From contig CP151667.1 of assembly GCA_038400315.1 (NCBI GenBank), positions 3,855,174-3,919,173 of the forward strand: a stretch of 64,000 bases of DNA, in the 5' to 3' direction. Below, piece after piece: positions 48,993-51,159 of the stretch. The DNA is from Isosphaeraceae bacterium EP7. GTDB lineage: Bacteria > Planctomycetota > Planctomycetia > Isosphaerales > Isosphaeraceae. Each line of letters starts with the position of its first letter. Within the stretch, counting starts at the first letter, position 1. The translations under genes were made by a program, and so were the position numbers. The notes beneath the pieces are model-generated. The model worked only from the letters and a program-made list of their open reading frames with translations. It had not been told where the DNA came from and did no database searches.

Positions 48993-49155
48993 GTTGCGGA
49001 TCCTTTGGGGTGCTCTGGGGCGAGGGCGAGGCCTGTCGGCCCGGAACGCCGCCGCGCCCGCAGCCCGACAAAACCGTCGGGCCGATCGATCTATTTAATG
49101 ACAAGGTATGGGCGAAGCAATAGGCCCCGCCCCCGGCGGAGGTCGGAGACGGGCC

Positions 49156-50694
49156 ATGACCGAGGGATTCACCGCAGGCGCCGACAGGGCCCTCAGACGC
49201 GCCGGCGCGCGGGCCAGCCGCAGGGGCAACGGCCTGGTCACGCCCGCCGACCTGCTCGCAGCGCTTGCCGATGAGGAAGAGAGCCGGGCCGTCTCCTGGC
49301 TCAGTGAGGCCGGCATTGCGCCGACGCAACTCCTGGATCTTCTGGGAGTTGAGGGGGAACCCGGGTCGGACGCGCCCGAGGAGGAATCGGCCCTCCCGCA
49401 CGCCCTCGATCTCCGCGCCGTGCTATCCGACGCCACATCGAGGGCCCGCCAGCTCGACCGGACCGTCCAGGTTGGCACCGAGCACCTTCTGGTCGCGATC
49501 CTCGCCAGCGTCCCCGAATTGTCACGGCAGATCGAGGGACTTGGGGTCGACCCGATCCTCTGGATTGATCGACTCCGGGACGAGTCCACGGGCGATTCGA
49601 GCCCGATCCCCCTGGACTCCGATATCCCGCCCCTCGACCTGGGCGAGCCGGGCCTGAGCACCGACCTGTTGCGCCTGGTTGACGCCTCGGCCAACCGCGT
49701 CCGCGAAGGCCTTCGCGTGGTCGAAGACTACGTCCGGTTCGTGCTCGACGACGCGTCGCTCTCGCGCCGGCTGAAGGAGATCCGCCATCGCTTCGCCGAG
49801 GCCTGCCGGGGCCTCGATGCCGAGGGGCTCACCGCCGCGCGCGACACCACCGGCGACGTCGGCACGCACATCATGACGGCCTCGGAGCAGTCGCGCGAGA
49901 GCCCCAGGGCCGTGCTTACCGCCAACTTCAAACGCATCCAGGAGGCGTTGCGCACGCTTGAGGAATACTCCAAGCTGGCCGACGTCTGGCTCGCCGGCCG
50001 GTTCGAGGTCCTGCGCTACGACGCCTACACCCTGGAGAAGCGGACCATCGCCGCCGTCGTCGCCCATCGCGAATTGGGCGAAGCTTGCTTGATGGTTCTC
50101 GTCGGCGGCCTGCCCACGCTGGGCGACCTGACCTGGGTGGTCGGCGAGGCCCTCGCCGGCGGCGCGGACGTGATCCAGCTCCGCGAGAAGGACCTGTCCG
50201 ATCGCGAGTGGCTGACTCGGGCGCGAGAGGTCCGGATCCTCACGGCCAAGGCACGGGCCAGGCTCATCGTCAATGACCGACCCGACCTCGCCCGCCTGTC
50301 CGGCGCCGATGGCGTTCATCTGGGGCAGGACGACGTGACCGTCCGCGACGCCCGACGCGTCTTCGGAACCGCCGGCCTGGTGGGCGTGTCGACGCACGAG
50401 ATCGCCGACGTCGAGCGTGCCCTGCTCGATGGCGCGAGTTACCTGGGAGTCGGCCCCGTGTTTGATTCCGGGACCAAGTCGTTCGACAGCTTCGCCGGCC
50501 TGGAATTCGTCCGGCAGGTGGCCGAGACGACGACGGTCCCCTGGTTCGCGATCGGCGGGATCGACGAGGAGAACGTCGGAGCGGTGATCGAGGCCGGGGC
50601 CCGGCGCATCGCCGTCAGCGGTGCCGTCGTCCGCGCCGAGTATCCCCGCAAGGCCGTCGCCACGCTCCGGGCCGCCCTGGACGCGGCCCGCTGA
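49156..50694 (+). CDS. thiE: Clp_N - ThiD2-like - ThiE fusion (thiamine phosphate synthase)
   Basis: The ATG at 49156 (MTEGFTAGADRALRRA) has GGAG 9 bases upstream and gives 512 residues. Residues about 1-135 resemble two Clp_N repeats (RGNGLVTPADLLAALADEEE; LDRTVQVGTEHLLVAILASV). Residues about 170-300 are the ThiD2-like helical domain (VDASANRVREGLRVVEDYVR, ANFKRIQEALRTLEEYSKLA). Residues about 305-512 are ThiE: GGADVIQLREKDLSDREW, LIVNDRPDLA, GADGVHLGQDD, GVSTHEIADV and YLGVGPVFDSGTK. It joins the thiazole and pyrimidine moieties into thiamine phosphate. The Clp_N part is unexpected for this enzyme. No TPP riboswitch was found upstream. Confidence 0.9.
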   Translation: MTEGFTAGADRALRRAGARASRRGNGLVTPADLLAALADEEESRAVSWLSEAGIAPTQLLDLLGVEGEPGSDAPEEESALPHALDLRAVLSDATSRARQLDRTVQVGTEHLLVAILASVPELSRQIEGLGVDPILWIDRLRDESTGDSSPIPLDSDIPPLDLGEPGLSTDLLRLVDASANRVREGLRVVEDYVRFVLDDASLSRRLKEIRHRFAEACRGLDAEGLTAARDTTGDVGTHIMTASEQSRESPRAVLTANFKRIQEALRTLEEYSKLADVWLAGRFEVLRYDAYTLEKRTIAAVVAHRELGEACLMVLVGGLPTLGDLTWVVGEALAGGADVIQLREKDLSDREWLTRAREVRILTAKARARLIVNDRPDLARLSGADGVHLGQDDVTVRDARRVFGTAGLVGVSTHEIADVERALLDGASYLGVGPVFDSGTKSFDSFAGLEFVRQVAETTTVPWFAIGGIDEENVGAVIEAGARRIAVSGAVVRAEYPRKAVATLRAALDAAR

Positions 50695-50709: not shown

Positions 50710-51123
50710 TTACAGCAAGACGTCGTCGAGGATCATGACGTAGTTCTGCCTCAGCCCCGCCTCGAACTCGTAGACGTCGTCGAAGTCGGTCCTGGAGTCG
50801 TTGGGAGTCTTCTCCAGGTCGCCCGAGGCGATGAGATTGTAGACGATCTCGCCGATGTCGGAGGTGGAGCGGATGCCCCAGCGAGCGAGTACGGCCAAGG
50901 CCATCAGCCCGTAATCTCGCAGGGCCAGCTTGCGGGCCCCCTCGCAGAGCTCCCGACCCGAGACGTGTCGGGCCCGCTTGCGCGACTTCAGCTTCGACTT
51001 CGCGCGGGCCTTGGCCTTGAGGACCTTGGTATATTCCAGGGCCTCGAAGACGAAGAAGTAGGCGTGGATCGTGTACCGGGCGTCTCGCGCGACCACCCGG
51101 GCCAGGTCATCTCGAAGGCTCAT
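50710..51123 (-). CDS. Minf_1886 family (Verrucomicrobia/Planctomycetes) protein
   Basis: The ATG at 51123 (MSLRDDLARVVARDARYT) gives 137 residues. The hallmark blocks are YTIHAYFFVFEALEYT, HVSGRELCEGARKLALRDYG, VLARWGIRSTSDIGEIVYN and the acidic C-terminal FDDVYEFEAGLRQN. The family is almost restricted to planctomycetes and verrucomicrobia (TIGR04138) and has no known function. A basic segment (KAKARAKSKLKSRKRAR) is a variable insertion here. It lies 36 bases downstream of the RicT-like gene, so the two probably share a transcript. Confidence 0.9.
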   Translation of the reverse strand: MSLRDDLARVVARDARYTIHAYFFVFEALEYTKVLKAKARAKSKLKSRKRARHVSGRELCEGARKLALRDYGLMALAVLARWGIRSTSDIGEIVYNLIASGDLEKTPNDSRTDFDDVYEFEAGLRQNYVMILDDVLL

Positions 51124-51159
51124 CGGACATTCCCCCGCGGCCATGCCGGCGCCGGACGC

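Follow-up and report, generated by a model that had tools for sequence, protein, structure and literature searches.

A Predicted Clp N-Domain of Two Clp_N Repeats Tethered to a Putative ThiD2-ThiE Thiamine Enzyme in an Isosphaeraceae Bacterium

The window (i.e., the whole 64,000-nucleotide stretch of DNA that was analyzed) contains a gene for a thiamine synthesis protein, thiDE, that begins with a domain otherwise carried by Clp chaperones. The gene is a complete open frame of 512 residues at 49156-50694 (+), with the start ATG at 49156 and the stop codon at 50692-50694. Profile comparisons and structural models confirm residues 1 to 145 as a Clp N-domain of two Clp_N repeats, tethered flexibly ahead of ThiD2-ThiE. 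We consider it probable, although by no means certain, that the N-domain is derived from ClpC, has drifted, and now equips the enzyme with an accessory module for binding another protein or a peptide. The features of the gene are as follows.

49138..49142, + strand: Shine-Dalgarno-like GGAGG, read from the sequence, 13 bases 5' of ATG 49156
49156..49590, + strand: predicted Clp N-domain with two Clp_N repeats, residues 1-145 (Pfam, PDB profile search, AlphaFold2, VIA-align, hhalign)
49591..49653, + strand: flexible proline-containing linker, residues 146-166 (low pLDDT in the AlphaFold2 full model)
49672..50040, + strand: ThiD2 domain, HMP-phosphate kinase family, residues 173-295 (PF17792, 142 bits)
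50125..50628, + strand: ThiE domain, thiamine phosphate synthase TIM barrel, residues 324-491 (PF02581, 185 bits; Foldseek)

A second in-frame ATG lies further 5', at 49108. A 144-residue frame at 50710-51144 (-), 3' of thiDE, has no Pfam match at E ≤ 0.001. No known RNA in the window scored above its Rfam gathering score, and no TPP riboswitch was found at that threshold.

In Pfam, Clp_N (PF02861) matched the whole protein with 36.0 bits and residues 1 to 165 with 38.6 bits, in two stretches (gathering cut-off, 20.7 bits). When residues 1 to 165 were compared with PDB sequences by phmmer, the top chain was 3fes_A (Clp endopeptidase, with C. difficile ClpC in its title; E = 8.5e-4), and a profile of 22 N-domains had 6emw_F (ClpC) as its top chain (E = 4.8e-23) and matched 71 distinct PDB sequences at E ≤ 0.001. 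Aligned by hhalign with the N-domains of 17 planctomycete ClpC proteins, the domain obtained a probability of 96.9% across 141 columns. A local N-domain profile selected the 86 fused proteins of our alignment; 79 of them score E ≤ 0.01 with Pfam Clp_N and 7 do not, so that the resemblance goes beyond chance. A Pfam scan of the window protein at E ≤ 5 detected no AAA family that would indicate AAA+ ATPase rings.

Because the ThiE barrel filled the list of the fold search with the whole model, the N-domain was modeled and searched separately. The AlphaFold2 model of the domain alone (pLDDT, 91.3; pTM, 0.87) comprises two groups with four helices each (residues 7-22, 30-39, 44-51, and 56-63, followed by 84-100, 108-118, 120-127, and 133-144). 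Eight confident helices are also present in the model of the whole protein (pTM, 0.69), in which the 10-residue blocks spanning residues 141 to 170 have pLDDT values of 65, 52, and 66, and residues 147 to 152 fall below 50. Most of the 50 Foldseek matches listed for the N-domain model are ClpC proteins; ClpC2, plant ClpC/ClpD, and malarial proteostasis proteins are also listed. VIA-align, which here re-examined Foldseek's own matches, gave Z values of 17 to 18 to the N-domains of ClpC, ClpB, and ClpC2 and to the malarial relatives. The structure alignment left out 27 of the 80 wide-flank loci (inserts, partial genes, ThiE-only matches, and redundancy). A preliminary description of this DNA had assigned the N terminus to Clp_N and proposed a profile search against PF02861 and a structure prediction; profile, profile-profile, and structure comparisons confirm the assignment, with a score above the cut-off and an eight-helix, pseudo-symmetric Clp N-domain fold in the model.

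The ThiD2 domain (PF17792) scored 142 bits against a cut-off of 23.5, and the ThiE portion scored 185 bits with TMP-TENI (PF02581) and 360 bits with NCBIfam NF002727 ("thiamine phosphate synthase"; cut-off, 335), such that PF02581, NF002727, and TIGR00693 were all above their cut-offs. In the full model, Foldseek matched the ThiE barrel to the thiamin phosphate synthases 1g4t and 3o63. The residues invariant in the 86 fused proteins include D176, N180, R181, E184, and R187 of ThiD2 and R343, K345, N373, D374, H388, Q391, S412, and K441 of ThiE, the latter of which we take to be the active-site and catalytic residues. On the basis of this invariance in ThiE, both enzyme domains look intact. The frame and the complete ThiD2 and ThiE portions that had been read from the DNA are thus borne out, and the product would be a putative bifunctional enzyme in which ThiD2 phosphorylates HMP phosphate and ThiE joins HMP diphosphate and thiazole phosphate. 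An ordinary ThiD is also encoded in the genome to which the window belongs.

The survey of Isosphaeraceae proposed in the preliminary description detected the fusion in 43 of 45 genomes. A single match spans nearly the whole protein in 39 of the 45; G011 has two adjoining match pieces within one 587-residue frame, and the N-terminal part is present in broken or contig-edge genes of G013, G036, and G043. The exceptions are G018, with the 3' part only, and G012, without a ThiD2 match. For the wider survey, 150 loci (30 from Isosphaeraceae, 112 from other members of the class, and 8 from outside the class) were chosen among the matches listed, drawing on an evenly drawn class sample of 297 genomes. 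A Clp_N-like N-region was found in 86 of the 150 loci with the local profile and in 87 with a broader one, a fraction that is not a prevalence because the loci were hand-picked for spread. The locus added by the broader profile, L150 (G207), is a fused gene whose N-domain is split over two frames and whose relatives are intact, which indicates either decay or an assembly error. The 64 surveyed ThiD2-ThiE genes without an N-domain match include the 8 from outside the class and this frame-broken gene. A search for a split-off N-domain beside the 64 genes returned a match within about 750 bases in only 4, all explained otherwise: L095, L138, and L140 by a neighboring clpC and L150 by its broken frame.

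Within the class, the fusion occurs in 13 of the 20 sampled families, 3 of which are mixed, and was seen in none of the members sampled from the other 7. Outside it, Clp_N was detected at E ≤ 5 in 0 of 28 ThiD2-ThiE genes from other classes of the phylum, which include every frame of at least 480 residues among the outside-class matches listed, and the domain was not found in the non-planctomycete ThiD2-ThiE records among the 80 wide-flank loci. The ThiD2-ThiE tree requires at least 16 changes in the state of the N-domain, at least 5 of which are forced by well-supported branches; for example, L123 has the fusion and its close sister L140 does not. An ancient gain followed by repeated loss fits this distribution, and the change count does not separate gain from loss. 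The thiDE genes of L180, L189, and, less so, L182 have about 250 to 370 residues ahead of ThiD2, and inspection by eye places a long low-complexity stretch between the two Clp_N-like repeats of L180 and L189. No paper on a Clp_N-ThiD2-ThiE fusion was found by title or start of abstract among the open-licence literature.

The fused domains have diverged far more than the corresponding domains of ClpC. The mean identity is 94% among the N-domains of 24 ClpC proteins adjoining thiDE, 26% among 26 fused domains, and 20% between the two kinds. In the three closest Isosphaeraceae pairs, the domain has dN/dS values of 0.13, 0.28, and 0.21, compared with 0.06, 0.06, and 0.08 in ThiD2-ThiE; the medians over 238 pairs, for which saturation is likely, are 0.52 and 0.23. 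Across the 25 pairs listed, the dN/dS of the domain exceeds that of ThiD2-ThiE by a factor of approximately 1.5 to 5. Values below 1 in the closest pairs, yet above those of the enzyme, suggest that the fused domain is kept, but loosely, and this ratio, together with the identity of about 26%, points to weak constraint on its surface. Passages of PMC10149685 describe the N-domains of ClpB and ClpI as less conserved than their ATPase modules and that of ClpC as highly conserved; given the variable ClpB and ClpI domains described there, fast evolution of a Clp N-domain alone would be no sign of lost function.

Several positions are nonetheless retained among the 86 fused domains, i.e., T/S at residue 6 (86/86), R11 (83/86), E42 (78/86), T/S at residue 108 (82/86), and G130 (78/86). 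The phosphoarginine pockets of Staphylococcus aureus ClpC contain, according to part of PMC12583610, the glutamates E32 (site 1) and E106 (site 2). The site 1 glutamate is gone in the window protein (A31) and in nearly all fused proteins (2 of the 86 have E there and another 2 have D), whereas the site 2 glutamate is mostly kept (E109 in the window protein; 65 of the 86 have E and 12 have D). One fused protein, that of L068, keeps both glutamates as judged by eye. The N-domain of planctomycete ClpC has a mean column identity of 97% (17 sequences), and its conserved surface is lost in the fused domains.

The gene clpC lies upstream of thiDE in 34 of the 120 wide-flank loci, always divergently transcribed, beside both fused and unfused genes (12/80 in the main set, 12/20 in the unfused set, and 10/20 in the fused set). 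The loci are as follows.

Divergent clpC/thiDE, part 1: L162, L165, L171, L174, L175, L177, L178, L181, L183, L184, L188, L192
Divergent clpC/thiDE, part 2: L245-L247, L254-L256, L259-L264, L266-L268, L272-L276, L280, L281

A recount that required E ≤ 1e-20 to full ClpC or ClpB gave 35 Clp matches in 34 loci, each of which is ClpC-like and lies upstream of thiDE on the other strand. The surplus match comes from an additional frame in L171 (4915-5805, -), a Clp_N-like frame of 297 residues between clpC and fused thiDE with no room for an ATPase. The remaining 86 of the 120 loci, some with short flanks, have no clpC neighbor (the upstream flank is at least 3 kb in 66 of the 80 main-set loci), and the adjacency is about equally frequent with and without the fusion. 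In many loci the gap between clpC and thiDE holds a frame of approximately 200 to 300 residues reading with clpC; that of L254, the only one scanned, has TPR matches, and the rest resemble it on visual inspection. In the genome of the window, clpC is about 177 kb from the fused gene.

The likely source of one fused domain is apparent. The domain of L068 (G154, family f16) is 57.7% identical to the N-domain of the adjoining ClpC and groups with ClpC, apart from the other fused domains, on an N-domain tree in which long branches meet. Since this identity is still 58%, copying from clpC is likely in the L068 lineage, where the domain would be a later copy or replacement. For the other fused domains, sequence comparison makes copying from clpC plausible. 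Against the window's genome, the fused-domain profile scored 89 bits with ClpC, 70 with ClpB, and 68 with a free Clp_N protein, and 74.5, 67.1, and 60.1 bits, respectively, when L068 was removed. The remaining preference of about 7 bits for ClpC may be caused, at least partly, by ClpC's slow evolution. ClpB was also considered as a source, on account of two hints (the top NCBIfam Clp match is ClpB, and one secondary match of the window protein is the ClpB of its own genome); the profile's preference for ClpC sets ClpB back, but it stays a candidate because the gap narrows to 74.5 versus 67.1 bits without the ClpC-like L068. Whether clpC and thiDE still undergo gene conversion was examined by comparing same-locus pairs (mean identity, 20.4%; n = 7) with different-locus pairs (20.1%; n = 161); these values leave conversion unsupported outside the L068 lineage, in which it perhaps occurs. 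The free Clp_N protein of the window's genome is a free-standing protein of 154 residues (L242:2893-3357, +; C1, at about 408.9 kb) with a PF02861 score of 92.9 bits.

Given that 64 of the 150 surveyed ThiD2-ThiE genes have no N-domain match, we infer that the domain is not catalytic and would be dispensable for catalysis. In the reading that we favor, the N-domain would have begun as a copy of part of a clpC gene and would have drifted from ClpC's own surface; as an accessory module with its own specificity, it would then bind a protein or peptide partner, and this binding would localize or regulate the thiamine enzyme. The preliminary description had suggested a protein-binding module, and the predicted intact fold and flexible tether are compatible with that suggestion. 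Proteins of the ClpC system would be the first candidate partners. If the domain does bind ClpC partners, vitamin B1 synthesis would be linked to regulated proteolysis in bacteria with the McsB arginine kinase.

The main rival to partner binding is that the domain is a passenger or structural part that binds nothing specific and whose fold is kept for solubility or assembly. The low identity among the fused domains (about 26%), the relaxed dN/dS, the presence and absence of the domain among close relatives, and the loss of one phosphoarginine-site glutamate are as such a passenger would have them. However, a fold of 145 residues has been kept in 13 of the 20 sampled families, the residues at positions 6, 11, 42, and 108 are retained in 78 to 86 of the 86 proteins, and the closest pairs have dN/dS values well under 1; we regard this explanation as rather unlikely, albeit a serious one.

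The preliminary description had also suggested a coupling of thiamine synthesis to Clp proteolysis, which could proceed via phosphoarginine proteins or Clp adaptors or via delivery of ThiDE to ClpCP. The machinery for arginine phosphorylation and Clp proteolysis is present in the window's genome, in that ClpC (top PDB match, ClpC1 of 8a8u), ClpS, McsB, and McsA-like proteins are all encoded. The McsB passes NF002194 (439 versus 385 bits) and is below the stricter NF053707 (378 versus 500 bits). Its gene is followed upstream by two genes for UVR-motif McsA-like proteins (L243:3850-6109, -), and a frame that is trpE-like by eye reads away from these genes. The recurrent clpC neighbor and the mostly kept glutamate of the second repeat would also suit a coupling. 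Against it, the glutamate of the first repeat is almost always lost, the surface conserved in planctomycete ClpC is missing from the fused domains (identity to ClpC, about 20%), the fusion is absent in close sisters that still have the enzyme, and in Clp machines the domain sits on the unfoldase, so that its carrier would not thereby be a substrate. The machinery is thus encoded, but the coupling itself appears improbable.

Another view, drawn by analogy, is that ThiDE influences the ClpC system in trans, be it as a moonlighting Clp regulator, a sponge for toxins aimed at ClpC, or a conditional ClpC client. Its ClpC-derived domain would compete with or contact ClpC, as mycobacterial ClpC2 does, and recurrent copying from the head-to-head clpC neighbor would be the route. 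We keep this view open, as a doubtful one, because ClpC2 is an ATPase-free Clp N-domain that acts on the Clp system, according to part of PMC10030653. If it is true, vitamin B1 synthesis and regulated proteolysis would sense each other. Finally, an annotation artefact, with the true start at ThiD2 and the upstream frame open by chance, would agree with the relatives that lack the N-domain and start at ThiD2, but is extremely improbable given the Clp_N homology above cut-off, the 85 fused homologues that align with the window protein, the dN/dS below 1 in the N-domain, and the GGAGG that precedes ATG 49156.

Among known systems, the N-domain of ClpC (B. subtilis ClpC, M. tuberculosis ClpC1, and others) shares the two-repeat, eight-helix fold (Z = 17 to 18), the flexible linker behind the domain, and one T-E-H motif. 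Unlike ClpC, the fused protein has no AAA+ rings and no site 1 glutamate, is approximately 20% identical to planctomycete ClpC, and carries the domain on a metabolic enzyme. The mycobacterial ClpC2, a partial ClpC1 homologue, likewise has a ClpC-type N-domain (8b9o, Z = 17.3; 8ad9, Z = 16.7); as described in part of PMC10030653, it binds its own promoter, acts as a cyclomarin sponge, and has the Clp domain at its C terminus. In the window protein, by contrast, the Clp N-domain is N-terminal, and its partner domains are ThiD2 and ThiE. The plant proteins ClpT1 and ClpT2 (4y0b and 4y0c; Z = 15.8 and 16.4) are accessory proteins with this fold, and we know of no enzyme fused to them. According to part of PMC4243950, they associate with the chloroplast protease. 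The enzyme part has the same domain pair and order as ThiD2-ThiE of the PRK02615 type, with family scores above the cut-offs (for ThiD2, see Thamm et al. 2017, as cited in part of PMC12345177). Unlike the window protein, the ThiD2-ThiE relatives sampled outside the class have no Clp_N domain (0/28). To our knowledge, few ATPase-free carriers of a Clp N-domain are known (i.e., ClpC2 and ClpT), to which the fusion adds a metabolic enzyme. Related genes that carry or lack the domain, some adjoining clpC and others remote from it, form a natural series that could serve to probe the role of a free Clp N-domain.
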